This document shows positions 12,062 to 43,478 of a DNA stretch of 64,000 bases, in pieces. Position 1 is the first letter of the stretch, and every line of letters begins with the position of its first letter. The stretch comes from Streptomyces sp. HUAS 15-9 (lineage in GTDB: Bacteria; Actinomycetota; Actinomycetes; Streptomycetales; Streptomycetaceae), in the NCBI RefSeq assembly GCF_025642155.1, contig NZ_CP106798.1:2480001-2544000 (forward strand), read 5' to 3'. The position numbers were made by a program, and so were the translations under genes. A model generated the notes under the pieces. The model made no database searches, had not been told where the DNA came from, and worked only from the letters and a program-made list of their open reading frames with translations.

Positions 12062-12300
12062 CTGCGGTGCGGTCTCCTGCCTTCCGGGCCTTCGAAGTGC
12101 CCGGATTGCCTGTGAGCAGCCCTTATGGCCTCATGAACGGCGCGAATGTAGCGGAGAGTGAGCAGTCCGTCGCACACTTTGCAGTTCATTCATCCGATCG
12201 TGTGAGGATTGCCCCCTGGGCTGACGTGAGCGGACCGGTCGTACAGTGGCTTGGGCGCATTACATGCCTGACACACCCGTCGCCGAGGGAGGCGCTTGCC

Positions 12301-18591: not shown

Positions 18592-19305
18592 TCACGTCGT
18601 CGCCGGGAGCAGGGACGCCGCGTGGGTGAGGAGCTCCTCGTAGATCTCGGGGCGGTCCTTGTCGATCACCGGGTAGCCGGCCCCGAAATCGCCGCCCAGC
18701 CAGTGGGCCTCGATTCCGGGGTTGGCGCTGTTCGTGCCGTCGTGCAGGAAGATGTGCGGGCTGCAGTTGACACGGTCGTCGCGGGCCGCGTCGTACTGGG
18801 CCATCACGGCCGCGCGGGACGACCCGGTGTCCAGGGCCGCGGCCAGCCGGCCGACGTCGACGGTGCCCGTCCGCTCGGCGATGTCGAGGATGACGTGGCG
18901 CAGCGAGATGCACCGGCCCTCGGCCCAGAAGGCGCGGCGCAGGGCTCGGTCGAGGCGTTCGCTCGCCTCCCAGCTCTGTGCCTTGGCCGCCTGCACCGCC
19001 TCGTGCGCGGGGAGCATGGTGACCGGGTAAGTCCAGTCGGGGCCCTGCCACAGGCGCCAGCCGGCGTCCGGTTCCACCGCGCCGAGCACCGAGATCTCGG
19101 AGTCGACGCCGGGCCGGGCGTTGACCTCGCGGTTGAACAGCTCCAGCGGGAAGGCCCGGAAGTCGAACCGGATGCGTCCCGCCAGGCCCAGCCGGTGCCG
19201 GGTCTCGTGCAGCCGGTGCACCGCGACATGGGCGAACGAGCAGTTAAGGTCGGTGAAGACGGCGATGGTGTCGGCGGTCGCGGGCAGCCGCGGGTCGTCG
19301 CTCAT
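18592..19305 (-). CDS. DsbA/GST-kappa-like thioredoxin-fold protein, last gene of the arginine-to-nitroimidazole-type operon
   Basis: The 237-aa protein opens with a thioredoxin-fold strand and an active-site-like turn (IAVFTDLNCSFAHVAVHRL), carries a helical insert and ends with NCSPHIFLHDGTNSANPG, the cis-Pro region of DSBA domains. Only one Cys is at the CxxC position (CSFA), as in 2-hydroxychromene isomerase or FrnE-like relatives, so simple disulfide exchange is unlikely. Its ATG overlaps the TGA of the preceding Rieske-methyltransferase frame (ATGA), showing translational coupling. Its role in the pathway is unknown. Confidence 0.8.
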   Translation of the reverse strand: MSDDPRLPATADTIAVFTDLNCSFAHVAVHRLHETRHRLGLAGRIRFDFRAFPLELFNREVNARPGVDSEISVLGAVEPDAGWRLWQGPDWTYPVTMLPAHEAVQAAKAQSWEASERLDRALRRAFWAEGRCISLRHVILDIAERTGTVDVGRLAAALDTGSSRAAVMAQYDAARDDRVNCSPHIFLHDGTNSANPGIEAHWLGGDFGAGYPVIDKDRPEIYEELLTHAASLLPATT

Positions 19306-20598
19306 GAGGTCTCCCCAGGCCGGGTGCGCTGGTCGAAGCGGGCGATGGTGACGTCGCCGGAGACGACACCGCCCCGCCACCGGTAGACCTGCCCGAAGGA
19401 GTCCTCCCCCGTCGGTACGCCCCGGCTGAAGGTGACGGCGATACGGTCGCCGCGCCGTACCGCGACCGGCTCGGCGACCGGCAGGTAGGCGTGCTTCCAG
19501 CTGTCGGAGGTCGTACGGGCCCCCGGGGTCGTCCGCGCCGATGTCGTCGCCGGAGATGTCCAGGGCGACGGTGTCGGACAGGTCGGCGACGAAGTAGCCC
19601 TGGAAGCCGGTGAACACGCCGTCGCGCTGGACGATGTGGACGAGCGGCACGCTGTACTCGGCCGGGTGCCCGCCGCCGTCCCGGAAGTCGTAGCGGCGCA
19701 GCAGCCGGGGTGCGGCGAGCCGGGCGGCGGCCGGGACGACCGTGTCGTAGTAGAGGTCGAACGGGTTGCGCGCGCCCCGGCGGCGCAGCAGTTCGGCGAA
19801 GCCCGCGCGGCTGTCGGCGTCCTGGGGCGCGCCGTCGCGCAGCTGGGCGTGGGCCTGTTCGGCGGCCACGGGGACGAGATAGCTCTCGACCGCGCGCGGC
19901 AGCATGGCCCCGCCGGGACGCAGGAAGCGCCGGCGGGCGTCGTCGAGGATGGCGGCGCAGTTCTCGTTGTCGGCGAGGTTGCCCATGATCTCGGAGACGA
20001 CGAGGTCGACGGGTTCGGGCAGCTCCAGGTCGAAGGAGATGCCGGACAGCGGGTGGAAGCGGTCGCCGAATCCGGCGGCGGCGAGCCGGTCGGCCGCGGT
20101 GACGAGGATCTTCTCGTTGAGGTCGATGCCGTAGACCCGGGCGGCGCCGGCCTCCAGCGCCCAGCGGGCCAGGATGCCGGTGCCGGTGCCGAGGTCGAGC
20201 ACGGTCGCGCCGGGTCGTACCGCCTCGGTGATCGCGGTGCGGTACGCGGTCATGCGCAGCCGGTCGCCGAGCATCAGGTCGTGGAAGCCGTCGTCCCAGT
20301 CCAGGAGCCGCTCGGAGGCCGGCAGCCACACCTGCTCGGGCCGGTAGCTCTGGCCGAGGACACCGGTCCGGTGGACGGTGAGCGACGTCTCGGCGGGGCC
20401 GGTCACCGGACATCCGGAGGCCAGGTCGAAGCTGCTGCGGTGCAGGGGGCAGGTGATGCGCAGGGTGCGTGGGTTGACGTACCCGTGGACGAGGCGGCCC
20501 AGCCGGTGCGGGCACGCCGCGTCGATCTCGAACTCGCGGCCCGCGACCGTGACCAGGACCCGGTCGCCGGGGAGTTCTTCGAGCACCGCGTCGCTCAT
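19302..20598 (-). pseudogene. Rieske [2Fe-2S]-methyltransferase fusion, frameshifted
   Basis: An N-terminal Rieske domain has both ligand pairs (AACPH and TCPLH, residues about 28-50). It is followed by a class I SAM methyltransferase with VLDLGTGTGILARWALEAG and VVSEIMGNLADNEN, resembling protein-arginine methyltransferases. The frame breaks near 19517-19530 in the run CCCCGGGGGCCC. Removing one base restores DDPGARTTSDSWKHAYLPV and runs to the TGA at 19302. The intact product would be about 431 aa. The start ATG 20598 overlaps the upstream stop. The break could be a sequencing error or a real mutation. S. cattleya azomycin-type clusters contain accessory genes beyond rohP-S; correspondence is inferred. 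Confidence 0.75.
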
Positions 20599-21431
20599 AC
20601 CGCCTCCCGGGCCCGGGTCACAGCCGCGTCGAAGGCGCCGCCGATCAGCTCGGACAGCAGCTGGGCGCCGATCCACAGCCGGGTGGGATCGATGCCGCCG
20701 GCCGCTTCGCACTCCTTGATCGCCAGCTGCATCTCCCGCATGTGGAAGGTGTCGATGTGCAGATGCTCGGTGTAGTAGCGGCCGTTCACGATGCCGAGGC
20801 GTTCGCAGGCGCGGGCCTGGACGGTGAAGGCGTCGGGGATGCTGGCCTCCAGGTAGGCGAGGGCGCCGAGGAAGCAGTCGATGTCCTCCGCGCGCTGGGT
20901 GAGCCAGTAGAAGACGTTGAGGAACTGGTAGGTCTCATCGCCGGTGGTGTCGAGGTGGCTCTCCAGGTCCTGGGGCAGGCCGAGTTCGGCGAGCAGGTCG
21001 AGATAGAGCTGGGAGTGGGCCTGGCGCTGGTTGCCGCAGCCGAACTCGTCGATGAGGACGCGCATCACGGCCATCTGGGCGCGCAGTGGCAGCCGGGGTA
21101 TCGCGGGGAAGAAGTTCTGTGCCTCGGTGAGTCCGTCGAGCGCGAACTCCCGGACGACGTGGGTGAATTCCTCGCGGGTGGCCTTCTCGGCGAGATAGCT
21201 GCCGGCCGGGCTGCCCGCGCGCTCGCGTGTCAGCAGTTCGTCGAGTCGTATGAGCCACTCGGCGCGGGTGGCGAGAGGTTCGGTGCGCTCGGTGAGGCGG
21301 GCCAGCAGCGGGCCGATCCACTCGGCCTCGAGCTCCTCGATGCGCGCGACCGTCCCGGCCGTGGGCCGGGCGCGGTTGAGCAGGAACAGCCGCTTGTGCG
21401 GGCTGTCGGTGGGGTGTGCGGTGACGTTCAC
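20595..21431 (-). CDS. Haem-oxygenase-like diiron oxygenase, candidate RohS-type N-oxygenase
   Basis: This 278-aa all-helical protein has the ligand pattern of haem-oxygenase-like diiron oxidases: E103 (TEAQNF), E129 and H139 (DEFGCGNQRQAHS), and H225-D227-H230 (EHLHIDTFHMRE). In azomycin biosynthesis RohS of this fold oxidises 2-aminoimidazole to 2-nitroimidazole. The neighbours fit that pathway, so this role is inferred from fold plus context. GTG 21431 has AAGGAGGT upstream and overlaps the aldolase stop (GTGA). The downstream Rieske-methyltransferase start overlaps its own stop. Confidence 0.8.
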   Translation of the reverse strand: MNVTAHPTDSPHKRLFLLNRARPTAGTVARIEELEAEWIGPLLARLTERTEPLATRAEWLIRLDELLTRERAGSPAGSYLAEKATREEFTHVVREFALDGLTEAQNFFPAIPRLPLRAQMAVMRVLIDEFGCGNQRQAHSQLYLDLLAELGLPQDLESHLDTTGDETYQFLNVFYWLTQRAEDIDCFLGALAYLEASIPDAFTVQARACERLGIVNGRYYTEHLHIDTFHMREMQLAIKECEAAGGIDPTRLWIGAQLLSELIGGAFDAAVTRAREAV

Positions 21432-22480
21432 CGCGGGACCTCCTTGTCCATGGGCTCCGGGACCTCCCGGGCGGTTTCCAGGACTCCGCGTCGGTGCAGT
21501 TCGGTCTTGAGGGTCAGGTACCAGTCGTCGCGGTCGAGGCCGTACCGGGCGCACGCCTCGGTGAGCCGGGCGGCGTCCGCGGCGGCCGGCTCGCCGAGCA
21601 GGGCCCGGCACAGCCCGGGTTCGACGTTGCCGAGGGCGACGACGCAGCCGCCCAGGGCCTGTTGCGAGGGTCCCGTCGTCCGCCCGGAGGGCGGGCCCTG
21701 CGGCGTCATGGGGGTCCCCCCTGCTCGAGCGCAGTCGAGAGCTTGGGGGAGCGTGCTCTCGGCGTGCCGGGTGCAGGCCCTCGTACTGGATGTACTTGGG
21801 TCTGTGCCCGGTGCGGCGAGTGGGGGTCCCCCCTGCTCGAAGAGCTTGGGGGAGCGTGCCGGGCGTCGACGGGCAGGCGGGACTCTCGCAACAGGCCCTG
21901 GCGACCCGCACTCCAGGAGCAGGTGTTCCAGCCCCTGGAGTACGGGCACGCCGGGGTGGGCCGCGATCAGTTCCCGGGTGGCGCGGGGGTCGCCCGCCGA
22001 GTCCTTGACCGCGGCGATGCCGGGCAGTGCGCAGATCCGCAGCAGGGTGTCCCGGTCGAGTGAGTTTCCCGAGGCCCAGGACTCGTGGTAGACGATCACG
22101 GGCAGGCCACTGGCCCGGGTGAGGTCCGTGAAGTGGCGGACCATGTCCTCCTGGCGCACTCCGGGCCCGTACGGCGTGGTCGCCACGACCGCGGCGGCGC
22201 CGAGTTCCTCGGCGGCGCGGGCGCGGGCGGCGACCTCGGCCGTGGTGGGCCGCAGGATGCCCGCGAACACCGGCAGCCCGTCGGCGTGCCGGACGGTCGC
22301 CGCGACCATCGTCCGCCACTGGCGGTCCGTCAGCCGGGTGCCCTCACCGGTGCTGAGCGCCGGAAGCAGGGCGTCGGCGTGCGGCCGCAGCGTCGCGACC
22401 AGTCGGGCCACCCCGTCCTCGGACACATCCCCCGTGTCCGTGACGGGGGTGACCAGTGCGACCGTCAGTCCCCCGATCAC
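21428..22480 (-). CDS. Dihydrodipicolinate-synthase-like aldolase (candidate RohR) with a MITE-derived insert
   Basis: The TIM-barrel protein keeps the family's catalytic residues: Tyr131 (VIVYHES), the Schiff-base Lys159 (IAAVKDSAG) and the ALSTGEGTR loop. In the azomycin route RohR cleaves 4-hydroxy-2-ketoarginine into guanidinoacetaldehyde and pyruvate. About 84 residues encoded by a 250-bp element interrupt the barrel between ECGS and GCVVALGNVEPG; without it the protein would be about 267 aa. The frame stays open (350 aa) but activity is doubtful. GTG 22480 is chosen for its GAGAGGAG site 9 nt upstream. A GTG at 22546 that overlaps the preceding stop is an alternative. Confidence 0.8.
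   Translation of the reverse strand: MIGGLTVALVTPVTDTGDVSEDGVARLVATLRPHADALLPALSTGEGTRLTDRQWRTMVAATVRHADGLPVFAGILRPTTAEVAARARAAEELGAAAVVATTPYGPGVRQEDMVRHFTDLTRASGLPVIVYHESWASGNSLDRDTLLRICALPGIAAVKDSAGDPRATRELIAAHPGVPVLQGLEHLLLECGSPGPVARVPPARRRPARSPKLFEQGGPPLAAPGTDPSTSSTRACTRHAESTLPQALDCARAGGTPMTPQGPPSGRTTGPSQQALGGCVVALGNVEPGLCRALLGEPAAADAARLTEACARYGLDRDDWYLTLKTELHRRGVLETAREVPEPMDKEVPR
21709..21757 (+). repeat. SPKL-EQG repeat, long copy, within the MITE-like element
   Basis: GGGGGTCCCCC is followed by TGCTCGAGCGCAGTCGAG and AGCTTGGGGGAGCGTGC. This is the fullest copy in the window and can fold on itself. Confidence 0.75.
21821..21860 (+). repeat. SPKL-EQG repeat, short copy, within the MITE-like element
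   Basis: This copy has the same ends as 21709-21757 but a shorter centre (CTGCTCGAAGAGCTTGG). On the minus strand it encodes SPKLFEQGG. Confidence 0.75.
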
Positions 22481-22542
22481 CGTGCGGTCTCCTCTCGACA
22501 TCTCGCCGGGCCCCTGCGACGGGGCCCGGGACGGGCCGACGC

Positions 22543-23076
22543 TCACAGGACGCCGGCCGGGACGCGCAGCACGAGCGACTGGCGGTAGAGCGCTTCGAGC
22601 GGTTCGGGGAAGACGGGTTCCGGCCCGTCGACCGGTGCGGGCGCCCGCACCGCGAGCCCCGTGTGGTGCGGCAGCCGGGGGCTCGCGCTGTGCAGCAGCC
22701 CCTTGCGGTTGCCGACCATGCCGAGCAGCAGCCGTTCATGTGCCGGGAGCCGCTGCAAAATCCCCTCGCCGTCCAGCGCCCACCGCAGGTCGGCCTCGTC
22801 GTAGCCGAGGCGGCGGATGTCCATGAGGGTGTGCAGGTTGTCCATGAACGGGTAGTAGGCGTCCTGGAGTTCACGGCCGTAGCCCCAGATGACGTCGTCG
22901 CAGCGGCCGACCTGCTCCAGGCTCATCACCAGCGTGCGGTCCAGACGGGCGGCGAAGAACGCCTTGCAGGCGATCCGCAGGGTGTCGTCGGCGCTGTTCA
23001 TGCCGAGGAACAGGGCGGCGTCGGCGTATTCGTCCGCGGATCCGGCATGCTCGCCGGCGGGCGGCTCAGCCGGCAT
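22543..23076 (-). CDS. Unrecognised 177-aa protein of the operon (position of RohQ)
   Basis: The protein starts [12 protein letters not shown] and then has [36 protein letters not shown] and [20 protein letters not shown]. It has no signal peptide or membrane helix and no motif that I can assign with certainty. It may belong to a Streptomyces DUF with a PIN-like start. It overlaps the upstream aminotransferase-fold gene by 11 bp and its stop overlaps a possible GTG of the aldolase gene, so it is translated with the pathway. In S. cattleya the second gene, rohQ, is reported as the enzyme that dehydrates the cyclised intermediate to 2-aminoimidazole. The match here is by position only. Confidence 0.65.
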
Positions 23077-24253
23077 GACGGTCGAGCACCTCGCGCATCC
23101 GCACCATCGCGTCGGCGAACGTGCGCGGTTCACGGGCCAGGGCGAAGCGGACATAGGACTCGCCCTTGTCGGGCTGGCTCCAGAAGAAGTAGCGGCCGGG
23201 CAGGACGTAGACCTCGGCTGCGCCCAGGACGCGCTGCAGCTCGGTGGCGGTCAGCTCGGGGTGGTTGATGCGGGCCCAGGCGACGCTGACGTCGGCGACC
23301 GGGTTCTGGAGTTCGAGGACGGTGCCGTCGAGGGCCTTGCCGATGGCGTCCCGGTTGACGCCGAGCACCTCGCGGACCGAGCCGAGCTGGTCGGCGCGGG
23401 AGTCCTCGACGTACTGCGTGAGCATGTTGAGGACGAACGGCGAGACGTTGAGCAGGACGCTGGTGTGCAGGTTGTACACGTCCTCGTGGATGTCGTCGCT
23501 GGGCGTGATCATGGCCGCCTTGGCGTCCTGCACCGGCCAGGTCTTGCCGGTGTCCTCGATGGCCAGGTAGGACACGCCGGAGCTCTCCAGCAGTTCGTAG
23601 ACGTCGAACCGCTCCAGTTCGGAGCCGAACAGGGTGAAGGAGGCGAAGCAGAAGTCGAAGATCAGCAGCTTGTTGTGGTCCTTGCAGAACCGTACGACCT
23701 CCTCGAAGCCCCGGCGCCCGTACTGCAGCAGTGTGAAGCCCGTGGGGTTGTTGGGGTCGACCAGGAACAGCGCGTCGGTGCGCACCCGGCGCTTGAGCTC
23801 GGCGTATATACGGTCGGGGTCGTGCAGCGCGGCCTCGTCGATCGGGTAGAGCGGTACGCCCATGTTGTCGAGGACGTCGTAGAGGTTGTCGAAGCAGGGC
23901 TCGACGAGGGTCACCGACATCCGCTGCTGCTTGAGGTACATGCCGGCGACCATGGTGGAGATGGACGCGGCGTAGGAGAGCATCGTCTTCCTGCGTGCCA
24001 GCGCGGTCCGCTGGCCGTGGAGGCGGAAGAACGACTCGATGAACCGCTGTTCGTAGGTGGCCTGCAGCCCGTTCTCCGCCTCGTACCACAGCTCGGGCAG
24101 CCGGGAGACGATGTCCTGCTGGGTGGCGGACTGGCGCTGGTGGGTGTGGGCGTCGGCCAGGTTGAAGCGGGTGCGCAGGGCCTGGATCTCGTGCTGGGTC
24201 AGATCGGTGAACTGCCGGTTGTCGGAACCGACCAGGGTGCTGTGCGGGTTCAC
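23066..24253 (-). CDS. PLP-dependent L-arginine oxidase/hydroxylase of the MppP/RohP type
   Basis: This 395-aa fold-type I PLP protein resembles MppP. The N-terminal arginine-pocket motif ([16 protein letters not shown]) matches the NxADGHxxQ segment of that family. [15 protein letters not shown] and the PLP lysine K237 (IEDTGKTWP) follow in order. MppP and RohP use O2 to turn L-arginine into 4-hydroxy-2-ketoarginine, unlike true aminotransferases. It is the first gene of six on this strand. GTG 24253 has GGAGGAAGC just upstream. An ordinary class I/II aminotransferase is the main alternative, made less likely by the N-terminal motif and context. Confidence 0.8.
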
Positions 24254-24873: not shown

Positions 24874-25452
24874 TCAGGCCTCCCGCACCGCCTCGATCTC
24901 CAGCGAGAGCTCGATCTCCTTGGAGACGAGGATGCCGCCGGTCTCCAGGGCCATGTTCCAGGTCAGTCCCCAGTCCTCCCGGTTGATCTTCCCGCGGGCG
25001 GAGAACACCGTCCGGTCGCCGCCCCACGGGTCGCGGGCGTAGCCCAGGTAGTCGACGTCGAGCGAGACCGGGTGGGTCACTCCCTTGATCGTCAGATTGC
25101 CGTCGAGCCTGCCGCTCTTGCCGTCCCAGGTCACGGAGGTGGACTCGAAGACGGACTGCGGGTGCTTCTCCGCGTCGAAGAAGTCACCCGACCGCAGATG
25201 GTCGTCGCGGGTCTGGTCCCCGCTCTCGACGCTGGCCATGTCGATCACCGCGGTCACCCTGCTGTCCTCGGGCCGCTCGCCGATGCGGACGGTGGCGTCC
25301 ACACCGGTGAACCGGCCGCGCACCTTGGTCAGCATGAAGTGGCGTCCCATGAAGCCGACTTCGGCGTGTCCAGGGTCGACCTTCCAGGTGCCGGCCGCCG
25401 GGAGTTCCACACCGTCGACCAGGCGGGTCGGTGTCGTTGCGCTTTCGGTCAT
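24874..25452 (-). CDS. YceI family polyprenyl-binding-type protein
   Basis: The 192-aa lipocalin-like protein has the family features: GTWKVDPGHAEVGFMGRHFML, VDATVRIGERPEDSRVTAVI, the acidic segment HLRSGDFFDAEKHPQSVFES and LTIKGVTHPVSLDVDY. There is no signal peptide, so it is cytoplasmic, unlike E. coli YceI. YceI proteins bind isoprenoid lipids in an eight-stranded barrel. It lies 52 bp downstream of the rhodanese gene in the same orientation, and both are probably controlled by the divergent MarR. Confidence 0.92.
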   Translation of the reverse strand: MTESATTPTRLVDGVELPAAGTWKVDPGHAEVGFMGRHFMLTKVRGRFTGVDATVRIGERPEDSRVTAVIDMASVESGDQTRDDHLRSGDFFDAEKHPQSVFESTSVTWDGKSGRLDGNLTIKGVTHPVSLDVDYLGYARDPWGGDRTVFSARGKINREDWGLTWNMALETGGILVSKEIELSLEIEAVREA

Positions 25453-25504: not shown

Positions 25505-25831
25505 TCAGGCGGACTCGGTCGGCAGCCCGGCGCCGATCCAGTCCTCCTTGCCGTCCTTGTACGTGTAGACCCGCTCGTAGCCGAGCTCGATGAGCCGCTT
25601 GGCGGCGATCCCCGAGTTCGGGCAGGTGGTGCCCGTGCAGTAGACGATCACCTCGGCCTGCTTGTCGGGCAGCAGCCCGGGCGCGAGGGTGTCCACCTCG
25701 TCGAGCGGCAGATTGCGGGCGCCCGGCAGGTGGGCCTCCTTGTAGTACGACTCCGGCAGGGCCTCCAGGACCGTCACCGCGCCGGCGTCGATCTTCTGCT
25801 TGACCTCGTCACGGGTCAGGTTCTGCGCCAT
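25505..25831 (-). CDS. Single-domain rhodanese-like protein
   Basis: The 108-aa protein is one rhodanese domain with the catalytic loop VYCTGTTCPNSGIAAKRL, whose first Cys is the likely persulfide carrier; a second Cys lies five residues on. PGARNLPLDEVD and the C-terminal KDGKEDWIGAG are also typical. ATG 25831 has GGAGG 6 nt upstream. Rhodanese plus YceI under a MarR repressor is a usual actinobacterial arrangement for electrophile or quinone stress, which is inference here. Confidence 0.92.
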   Translation of the reverse strand: MAQNLTRDEVKQKIDAGAVTVLEALPESYYKEAHLPGARNLPLDEVDTLAPGLLPDKQAEVIVYCTGTTCPNSGIAAKRLIELGYERVYTYKDGKEDWIGAGLPTESA

Positions 25832-25961: not shown

Positions 25962-26417
25962 ATGGCTGACCGGGACTACGGACTAGAGGCATGGCGGGCG
26001 ATGCTGCTCGCCCACAACGCCGCCCTGCGCGCGATCGAGAGCGACGTCCAGCGCGACGGCCGCGTCCCCCTCACGTGGTACGACGTACTGCTCGAGCTCA
26101 AGGCCGCCGGCGAGGAGGGCCTGCGCATGCAGGAAGTCGCCAACCGCGTCGTCCTCAGCCGCACCCGGGTCAGCCGCCTGGTCGACGACATGGTGCGCGC
26201 CGGGCTGGTGCGCAAGATGCCCGATCCGCACGACCGCCGGGTGTCCTGGGCGGCCATCACCGACGAGGGCGCCGCCGCGCTGCGTGCCACCGCGCCGGTG
26301 TACCTGCGCAGCATCCACCGCCACTTCTCGGCGCACCTGACCGACGACGACGCCCAGGTCGTCGCCCAGGCGCTGCACAAGGTCGCGCAGCGGGACGACG
26401 GCGTGGAGTGCGTCTGA
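25962..26417 (+). CDS. MarR family transcriptional regulator
   Basis: The 151-aa winged-helix protein has the MarR core: LTWYDVLLELKAAGEEGLRM, QEVANRVVLSRTRVSRLVDDM and the wing PDPHDRRVSWAAITDEG. It probably dimerises on the inverted repeat just upstream and represses both itself and the rhodanese-yceI genes. No cysteine is available for thiol sensing except one near the end (VECV), so a small ligand or that Cys could be the signal. ATG 25962 is the only sensible start. Confidence 0.93.
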   Translation: MADRDYGLEAWRAMLLAHNAALRAIESDVQRDGRVPLTWYDVLLELKAAGEEGLRMQEVANRVVLSRTRVSRLVDDMVRAGLVRKMPDPHDRRVSWAAITDEGAAALRATAPVYLRSIHRHFSAHLTDDDAQVVAQALHKVAQRDDGVECV

Positions 26418-41560: not shown

Positions 41561-43478
41561 GTGCAGTCACAGGATGTAGCCCCGCGTCACGCACCCCACT
41601 CCGCCAAAGGCCCCGGCCCGGTCGTCGACGTCGAGCAGGCCGAGGCCGCGCTCGTCGAGCACTACCCGCGCCTGGTCCGGCTCGCCTATCTGGTGCTGCC
41701 GCCGGGCCTCGGCCGAGGCCGCCGCGTCCTGACCGCGCACGCCCTCACCCAGCGCGCGCTGCCCCGTGGCCGCACCTCGGCCGCCGCGATCCCGGCCCAG
41801 TCGACGGGCTCCGACACGGACCCCGGCTACGCCTTCGTCCGCCTCCAAGTGGTGCGTTCGGCCCTGAAGGCCACCCGGACCCGGGGCCGCGGAATGTGGC
41901 AGCTGCCCCCGCTGCTCCCCCAGGTCTGGGGCCTGCGCCTGTTCCCGCGCTCGGGCGGCGCCGACGAACTCGCCCTGGACCAGCGCCTCGCGACCCTGTC
42001 CGGCCCGGCCCGTGCCGCGTATGTGCTGCGCGGTCTGGAGCGGCTCGCCGACGGCGACGTACGGCAGTTGCTGGTGGCCGCCGGGGCCGAGGACCCGGAC
42101 GAGGCGCTGCTGGAGGCCGACGACGTCCCCGCGCAGCACGCGCTGCTCGCCTCCCCCGAGTTCGACCCCTGCTCGCTGCAGGCCCGGCCCACCGACCTGA
42201 TGCGGCGCAGACAGCACACCAAGGCCGCGCTCGCCGCCGCGGCCGCCCTCGCGGTGTGCGGCGCCCTGGTCGTCCTGCCGGGCGGCGGCTGGGGCCCCGA
42301 CGGCGCCGCCGCCCCCGCGTACGCGCAGAACCCGGCGGCCGAGGCCGCCCTCGACCCCGGCCAAGCTGACCAGGATCGCGCCCACCGCCTGGAAGACCTC
42401 GGCACGCGCCGACTTCTCCGTCTGGCCCGCGCGCGGCCCCCTCACCGGCGACACCGCCCTGCTGCGCCGCGCCCTCGCCGTCTGGGCCCGCCCCGGGGAG
42501 ACGGTCCGCGTCTCGGCAACCCCCGGCACCCAGACCGGCGGCCCGGCCGGACCGCCCCAGCTGCTGTACGCGGGCGACGTCGACAACGCCCGCGTGGTGA
42601 TCCTCTACGACGGCCTGCGCATCGCCCGCTACGCCGAGCCGAAGGACGGCACACAGGGCGCGGCCCTCGACCTCGCCCGCGCCGACGGCGCCACCGGCGT
42701 CGGGGCGAGCGCGCTGGTGCTGGGCCGCTCCGACGGCAACGTCCGCTATCTGACGGCTCCTTGGGTGAAGGCGGCCGCCGAGCGGGACCTGACCAAGCCC
42801 GGCGCGGGCGCGATGGACCTCGGCCTGACCGACGGTGTCACCGGCCCGCTGGCCAGCCCTGTCATGCAGCCCGGCGCGTGCATGTCGTGGAACGTGCTGC
42901 AGCTGACCGACGCCTCCGGCACCCGGCTCACCACCGACCTCGGCGAACTGGTCCCCGCCCACCTCACCACGGGCCGGCCCGGCAAGCCGCACGAGGCGAA
43001 CGGGGCGGAGGCGCTGCGCACCTGGGCGCCGTTCGCCTGCTCGCTGTCCGCCGAGCGCGCGGCGGGGATCAGGAGCGTCAACGCCTGGGCGTTCGCCGAC
43101 CAGACACTGCCCGAGAACAGCGGGACGGCCGGCTGGGTGTGCACCCGCGCGGAGACCTGGCGGGGCGACGGGACGGCGGCGCTGGCCCAGTTCCACACAC
43201 CGGGCGGGCGCTACGGGGCGGTGGCGGCCAAGGCGACGGACGTGACGGCGTGCGGTGCGCGTGATCCGCATGTGCTGGCCGGGGTGTTGTGGAAGTCCGA
43301 CGCGGGGACGTGGTACCTGCTGGCCGCAGGCGGCAAGGACACCGCGTCGATCCGCACGACCGGCGGGGTCACCGCCGCCGCCAGCGGCAGCACACTGGCC
43401 GTACCGGCGAAGCAGGGCACCCAGGCACAGCTGTCGGGCACCCTCGACGACGGGACCACGCTGCACGGACTGCGCTAG
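41561..43478 (+). pseudogene. Membrane protein of unknown function, frameshifted
   Basis: The first frame (41561 to about 42360) encodes a sigma-factor-like helical part (LVEHYPRLVRLAYLVLPPG), a long soluble part and one membrane helix (AALAAAAALAVCGALVVLP). The reading then continues one frame over from about 42359 (AKLTRIAPTAWKTSARADFS) to the stop at 43478, with no break in similarity of style or codon use. One extra base in the run CCCCGGCC at 42355-42362 explains the shift. The intact protein would be about 638 aa. It may be a sequencing error. GTG 41561 follows GAAGGA. Confidence 0.75.

Follow-up and report, generated by a model that had tools for sequence, protein, structure and literature searches.

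A roh-type azomycin locus in Streptomyces sp. HUAS 15-9 with a mobile-element-like insertion in its predicted aldolase gene

The biosynthesis of azomycin (2-nitroimidazole) from L-arginine has been described for streptomycetes and for Pseudomonas, and we take the chemistry of the pathway from the available parts of PMC10724926 and PMC12713392. RohP is given as the Streptomyces cattleya enzyme of the azomycin route in the accessible part of PMC7497351; RohQ, whose product in the pathway is 2-aminoimidazole, is termed a cyclodehydratase in that of PMC10724926; and Streptomyces eurocidicus is described as a maker of azomycin itself in that of PMC12713392. Here we analyze a related locus in Streptomyces sp. 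HUAS 15-9, located in a stretch of 64,000 nucleotides (contig NZ_CP106798.1, positions 2,480,001 to 2,544,000), hereafter called the window, in whose coordinates all positions are given. Six minus-strand genes follow one another in the order rohP, rohQ, rohR, rohS, a Rieske-methyltransferase gene and a DsbA-like gene (Table 1). As judged from sequence, the locus is an orthologue of the known azomycin (roh) locus and not a new type of pathway. We consider this reading likely. Its output in the strain is probably reduced or lost, unless the aldolase tolerates an insertion within rohR by an element resembling a miniature inverted-repeat transposable element (MITE).

In the pathway that we propose, and using the customary names of the intermediates, RohP would convert L-arginine to 4-hydroxy-2-ketoarginine, which RohR would cleave in a retro-aldol reaction to guanidinoacetaldehyde. 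Ring closure by RohQ would give 2-aminoimidazole, and the diiron enzyme RohS would oxidize its amine to the nitro group of azomycin. The Rieske domain would most likely serve as the electron donor to RohS and, based on its position, we infer that the Rieske gene corresponds to the published RohT.

Core enzymes and their relatives

The original prediction, made from the DNA letters and their open reading frames (ORFs), had described six tightly coupled minus-strand genes in this order, and the junctions agree with it: rohP and rohQ overlap by 11 nucleotides (nt), rohR/rohS, rohS/Rieske-methyltransferase and Rieske-methyltransferase/DsbA-like overlap by 4 nt each, and the only gap, between rohQ and rohR, is 62 nt. 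The enzyme types that it had named also stand, with Pfam and NCBIfam concurring on an MppP-like protein dependent on pyridoxal 5′-phosphate (PLP), a member of the dihydrodipicolinate synthase (DHDPS) family, and a Rieske domain with a methyltransferase, and with Pfam only behind the DUF6190, Haem_oxygenas_2 and DSBA assignments. It had overlooked defects in two of the six genes, namely the insertion in rohR and a change of frame in the methyltransferase half of the Rieske fusion. Rfam at gathering thresholds gave no match in the window, a promoter scan returned no promoter-like sites, and a terminator scan returned three terminator-like sites, where 1.7 were expected, none of them on the strand of the operon.

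RohP of the window scores 660 bits against PDB entry 6c3a, a RohP structure which we take to be that of the S. cattleya enzyme, compared with 188 bits against MppP and 169 bits against 7n79 (named only as an aminotransferase-domain protein). The highest score against four chains named as ordinary aminotransferases is 29 bits; we thus ruled out an identity as an ordinary aminotransferase, a class with which the protein does not group. The P protein of genome G396 is identical to 6c3a across 378 amino acids (aa), on which ground we assign this genome to S. cattleya, and the window protein is 76.2% identical to it but only 34% identical to MppP. The best NCBIfam model is MppP, below its cut-off, and the Pfam family is Aminotran_1_2. 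The PLP lysine is K237, within an EDTGK motif. In a tree of 41 P rows, the window protein lies among the S. eurocidicus, S. cattleya and K. azatica loci (clade I) and apart from a second group of loci, clade II.

The RohS family profile scores 274 bits against Pseudomonas PbrRohS (9pfx) and 68 bits against SznF. Seven residues (E103, E129, H139, E195, H223, D227 and H230) do not vary across an alignment of 17 proteins; they align with residues of PbrRohS and with those of SznF that are presumably its metal ligands. A 3H/4C ligand set is given for N-oxygenases such as SznF in the available part of a review (PMC13108848), and the window RohS holds this seven-residue set complete. Loss of diiron ligands was accordingly ruled out, all seven being present and aligned. 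In a tree of 43 S proteins, the window protein pairs with that of genome G009, its nearest relative (100/98), inside a 23-row group that includes RohS from S. eurocidicus, S. cattleya and K. azatica (96/95). The proteobacterial RohS proteins form the next branch (93/90) and the clade II proteins stand apart. The placement of SznF, PbrRohS and the Paraburkholderia row, each on a long branch, is unsure.

Between rohP and rohR, the S. eurocidicus, S. cattleya and K. azatica loci likewise carry a rohQ gene, with 57–63% identity to the 177-aa protein of the window. By gene position and homology this protein, which the original prediction had left unrecognised, is RohQ. A literature search for its Pfam family, DUF6190, found no paper in the collection covered.

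The arrangement of the genes was compared with that of the described systems. S. eurocidicus ATCC 27428 (rohPQRST; L056/L042) shares with the window the series P-Q-R-S-Rieske-methyltransferase, with MarR, rhodanese and YceI genes on one side and the DsbA-like gene on the other, and its P and S are 77% and 70% identical to those of the window. The order there reads MarR, YceI, P, Q, R, S, Rieske, methyltransferase, multicopper oxidase, DsbA-like. It differs in that the Rieske and methyltransferase genes are separate and a 1,262-aa MnxG-like multicopper oxidase lies between the methyltransferase and DsbA-like genes, whereas the window has no oxidase at the locus and has the element in rohR. The S. 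cattleya locus (G396, L109) shows the same block and order as the window (P 76%, S 71% identical) but contains the multicopper oxidase and a rohR without the insertion; K. azatica (L116) has the gene set of these two species minus the oxidase. The Pseudomonas rohPQRST genes (PbrRohS; PDB 9pfx/9pfw) encode the same pathway enzymes, with an S that is 40% identical and shares the ligands; unlike the window genes, they form a five-gene operon adjoining luxRI genes, according to the available part of PMC12713392. In Paraburkholderia (L070) the methyltransferase gene instead precedes P and the Rieske gene follows S, and there were no MarR-YceI matches. The clade II loci (L044-L046, L048-L051, L111-L113, L115, L119-L122), from Streptomyces and related genera, share P, Q, R, S and Rieske genes with the window, with lower identities (P 61–66%, S 43–48%). 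Taken together, the homology, the ligands, the trees and the gene order in S. eurocidicus, S. cattleya and K. azatica support the original prediction of an azomycin-type locus in which P, Q, R and S follow the published order. Neither of the two outcomes that it had named as refuting was observed: the PLP protein does not group with ordinary aminotransferases, and the diiron protein keeps its ligands and groups with RohS.

Table 1. Features of the roh locus of Streptomyces sp. HUAS 15-9, in window coordinates
Feature	Position	Strand	Basis or remark
DsbA/FrnE-like thioredoxin-fold protein	18592..19305	-	PF01323; motif CSFAH
rohT-like Rieske domain fused to methyltransferase resembling protein arginine methyltransferases (PRMTs)	19302..20598	-	frame break ~19,520-19,534
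rohS, haem-oxygenase-like diiron N-oxygenase (predicted: 2-aminoimidazole to 2-nitroimidazole)	20595..21431	-	family profile, ligands, tree
rohR, DHDPS-like retro-aldolase, 350 aa	21428..22480	-	PF00701; 82-codon in-frame insertion
MITE-like element in rohR, 250 bp including 24-nt terminal inverted repeats	21652..21901		arms 21652-21675, 21878-21901
rohQ, 177 aa	22543..23076	-	Pfam DUF6190, PF19689, 212.8 bits; position and homology
rohP, O2- and PLP-dependent L-arginine oxidase (hydroxylase)	23066..24253	-	6c3a score, identity to G396 P, K237, tree
YceI-domain protein	24874..25452	-	PF04264; 69-88% identity in 24/28 clade I rows, several genera
rhodanese-domain protein	25505..25831	-	PF00581; 51-89% identity in 25/28 clade I rows
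MarR-family regulator, divergent	25962..26417	+	PF12802; 64-85% identity in 24/28 clade I rows

The interrupted rohR gene and the methyltransferase frame

The rohR gene of the window is longer than those of its relatives by a net 246 nt, and the closest database relatives of its product (P0123 and P0124; 268 aa, 95% and 93% identical) are without the extra segment. The insertion, which keeps the reading frame and contains no stop codon, covers RohR residues ~193–275 and coincides with the MITE-like element, whose inverted arms are 96% complementary. From the bases flanking the element we claim no target-site duplication. A second long copy of the element lies elsewhere in the genome (G000:C1:1017791-1017980), where matches number 51 in total, mostly partial. 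For nine other database proteins (P0173-P0181), among them a major facilitator superfamily transporter, an acyl-CoA dehydrogenase and a short-chain dehydrogenase/reductase-type oxidoreductase, the best match to RohR falls inside the inserted segment or extends across it. The element has thus inserted in frame into other, unrelated genes as well. An assembly artefact as the origin of the insertion was ruled out by the terminal inverted repeats, the second long copy, the many partial genomic matches and the pieces in the nine unrelated proteins. The repeat may supply stop-free coding segments to Streptomyces genes; the protein search used here detects in-frame cases only.

The insertion sits in the short segment immediately preceding barrel strand β8, and among 60 proteins found (7,994 candidates scored) the only rohR product bearing it is the window's own, P0122. 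K159 and Y131, presumably the catalytic residues as in the DHDPS family, are invariant in 44 aligned sequences including that of the window; K. azatica is represented in this alignment by protein P0164, and its row L116 was ignored in the insertion alignment. Loss of RohR function would be likely. DHDPS and Haem_oxygenas_2 domains occur together in two proteins from Streptomyces (P0158 and P0161; 545 and 565 aa), which are apparently natural RohR-RohS fusions.

The methyltransferase of the window is encoded in two frame pieces, with no single open frame through its C-terminal barrel, and intact copies are present in relatives. Because of this break, an automatic ORF (18592-20712, 706 aa) joins the N-terminal part of the Rieske-methyltransferase to the DsbA-like protein; a genuine methyltransferase-DsbA fusion was ruled out on this explanation. 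When 52 ORFs of G009 were matched in the window, four rows at three places were flagged as frame-split, two of the places being clear: the methyltransferase and a gene near 42,363, besides a short N-terminal overlap at 12,064-12,189 that involves two overlapping query ORFs. The gene near 42,363, whose frame is likewise broken when compared with G009, occupies positions 41561-43475, and its intact G009 copy gave no Pfam match. With an element adding 82 codons to rohR and the methyltransferase frame broken, output of the pathway would probably be reduced or lost.

Several observations weigh against this reading of the locus: (i) K159 and Y131 both lie upstream of the insertion; (ii) in an AlphaFold2 model of RohR, the predicted local distance difference test (pLDDT) score of the barrel is mostly >90 on either side of the insertion, residues ~199–263 of which form a disordered loop between strands β7 and β8, and since the barrel is kept, loss of RohR function is not certain; (iii) given the other frame splits in the window, the methyltransferase break may be a residual sequencing or assembly indel; and (iv) the two trees place Paraburkholderia differently, its P with clade II (95/91) whereas its S goes with clade I (93/90).

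In a rival reading the locus is fully functional: RohR accommodates the insertion as a flexible loop, and a sequencing indel accounts for the break in the methyltransferase frame. An in-frame, stop-free insertion in a model that retains the barrel fits this reading, as do the full-length alignments of P, Q, S and the DsbA-like protein with intact relatives, the in-frame pieces of the element in nine other proteins (found by a search that is blind to out-of-frame cases) and the other clear frame break, which suggests residual indel errors. Against it, the insertion breaks the segment just before β8, and the interrupted form is a single member of the 60 proteins. We regard a fully functional locus as possible but rather unlikely, and prefer an azomycin-type locus with diminished or lost output.

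The methyltransferase and the predicted product

The N-terminal piece of the broken gene carries a Rieske C-x-H...C-x-x-H motif at residue 29 and also a PRMT-like S-adenosylmethionine (SAM) domain, with motif I DLGTGTG and a double-E pair, E203/E212. A profile of ten intact relatives searched against the PDB matches PRMTs (best E 6e-27), and SEIMG falls on the PRMT motif SEWMG in the alignment. PRMTs (PRMT6; 3r0q, listed as probable PRMT 4.2) resemble the window protein in their SAM domain and SEWMG-like double-E loop, whereas the latter is fused to a Rieske domain and lies within a small-molecule gene cluster. All 11 relatives in the alignment, and the N-terminal piece of the window, have the pair as SE-x8-E, the second Glu following nine residues after the first. 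In PRMTs the double-E pair holds the arginine guanidinium, so a guanidine-like methyltransferase substrate is plausible by analogy. The Rieske and methyltransferase parts are separate ORFs in S. eurocidicus (L042:7294-8654) and fused in close relatives of the window, and three proteobacterial proteins (P0090, P0112 and P0114) have a Rieske-like motif, read by eye, ahead of the methyltransferase.

The original prediction had treated the Rieske-methyltransferase and DsbA-like genes as extra genes that could imply a modified nitroimidazole. That argument is not supported, and the genes do not on their own point to a methylated product, as the same genes occur in the azomycin loci of S. eurocidicus, S. 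cattleya and K. azatica. A scan of named genomes with the methyltransferase placed S. eurocidicus ATCC 27428 (L056) among 21 loci, and a methyltransferase beside PQRS in the azomycin locus of this species is therefore compatible with plain azomycin. Still, the locus might make an N-methylated nitroimidazole, or proceed via a methylated guanidine, if the double-E pair of the PRMT-like enzyme binds arginine or 2-aminoimidazole at its guanidine-like group and the enzyme then methylates a nitrogen. The conserved SE-x8-E pair of a PRMT relative speaks for methylation, as does the presence of the methyltransferase in 27 of 28 clade I rows. Against it stand S. eurocidicus ATCC 27428, a described maker of plain azomycin that carries this gene too, the 15 clade II PQRS loci, none of which has the gene in the stretch fetched, and the broken frame in the window itself. 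We regard methylation as possible but rather unlikely and take plain azomycin to be the predicted product.

The 28 clade I rows represent 27 distinct loci, as L069 and L114 cover one stretch of a single contig, and several further clade I loci that repeat fetched ones were left out. An MnxG-like multicopper oxidase of ~1,260 aa, scoring 714 bits to MnxG (9bxa), is present in 17 of the 28 rows (16 distinct loci). At L037:11435-15241 it lies between the methyltransferase and DsbA-like genes, a place that it also takes in 15 other distinct clade I loci, including S. eurocidicus and S. cattleya. It is absent from this interval in the window and in L032-L036; L071 stops soon after the methyltransferase and cannot show an oxidase. 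A search of the window's genome, run without a positive control, found no oxidase match. In clade I generally, the PRMT-like enzyme could methylate a linear or cyclic guanidine, be it arginine, 2-aminoimidazole or some intermediate, and the oxidase, where a locus has one, could oxidize the result further, giving an undescribed N-methylated or oxidized nitroimidazole besides azomycin, although we consider this doubtful. In the titles and starts of abstracts that were found, none describes, or assigns a role to, the methyltransferase, oxidase or DsbA gene of roh loci; the original pathway paper (Hedges and Ryan 2019) was outside this search and may describe them.

Distribution, neighbouring genes and implications

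Among 392 genomes of the genus, S proteins at least 70% identical to that of the window occur in 11 genomes besides the window's own, and 23 further matches, among the matches listed, are 43–49% identical; gene neighbours were viewed for 11 of these 23. The RohQ profile has matches in 15 of 297 genomes of the family and in two of 396 genomes of the phylum, both from the window's genus and one of them the window's own genome. In the 15 clade II rows, the stretches fetched contain no methyltransferase, oxidase, MarR or YceI gene, and 13 have a DsbA-like gene.

Two loci, L043 and L047, have an S homologue (43–47% identical) adjoining a small Rieske gene, and P, Q and R were not found within 20 kb; these perhaps represent another N-oxygenation pathway. 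Such loci, and RohP relatives such as MppP that serve other arginine pathways according to the available part of PMC7497351, would be in keeping with another reading, in which the operon turns arginine into something else, such as an enduracididine-type compound, and only looks like the azomycin cluster. This is very improbable here: the window holds the full set of P, Q, R and S in the order published, these group with the published azomycin loci, and its P is only 34% identical to MppP against 76% to S. cattleya RohP. In L118, P, Q and R are present and S, Rieske and methyltransferase genes were not found within 20 kb, possibly marking another decaying copy. The clade II locus L046 (10595-12980) has, after its Rieske gene, a cytosine/purine-type permease and a protein that combines 2Fe-2S and NAD-binding oxidoreductase domains; roles in transport and electron supply for the pathway are plausible.

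The conserved block runs past 24,253, the end of the six genes, to the MarR gene at ~26,417, with MarR and YceI genes each in 24 of the 28 clade I rows and rhodanese in 25. YceI and MarR copies at least 85% identical were met only in the window's genome and G009, both locus carriers, among 25 genomes sampled; in the other 23, identity among the matches listed reaches at most 47% for YceI and 42% for MarR. The housekeeping flanks tested (glnA and an htpX-like gene) match in G009 only. Owing to their conservation in clade I and the restriction of close copies to locus carriers, the MarR, rhodanese and YceI genes are probably part of the roh locus.

In the DsbA-like family, the CSFAH motif, with one cysteine, is invariant in 15 of 15 aligned proteins, and C181, in a later CSPH motif, is also invariant in these sequences. 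With a single cysteine in place of CxxC, the protein is not a classical CxxC oxidase. A sequence search of the PDB with the family gave a best E of only 0.11. The fold model has a mean pLDDT of 69 (low confidence) and Foldseek ranks FrnE best, with kappa-class glutathione transferases and Rv2466c lower, which at this confidence supports only a broad DsbA/FrnE/kappa-class glutathione transferase assignment. Thiol-dependent handling of nitro or electrophilic compounds would be our guess for its function. For the PRMT-like methyltransferase, DsbA-like, YceI, rhodanese and MarR proteins together, roles in regulation, redox supply or self-protection would be most likely.

The locus documents a mobile element inside a pathway gene of an antibiotic locus, and DUF6190 gains a likely function as RohQ. 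The actinobacterial azomycin locus is a larger conserved block than rohPQRST, comprising a PRMT-like methyltransferase, a DsbA-like protein without CxxC, MarR and, often, a giant multicopper oxidase. With this block defined, self-protection of producers against nitroimidazole and possible tailored nitroimidazoles become testable.

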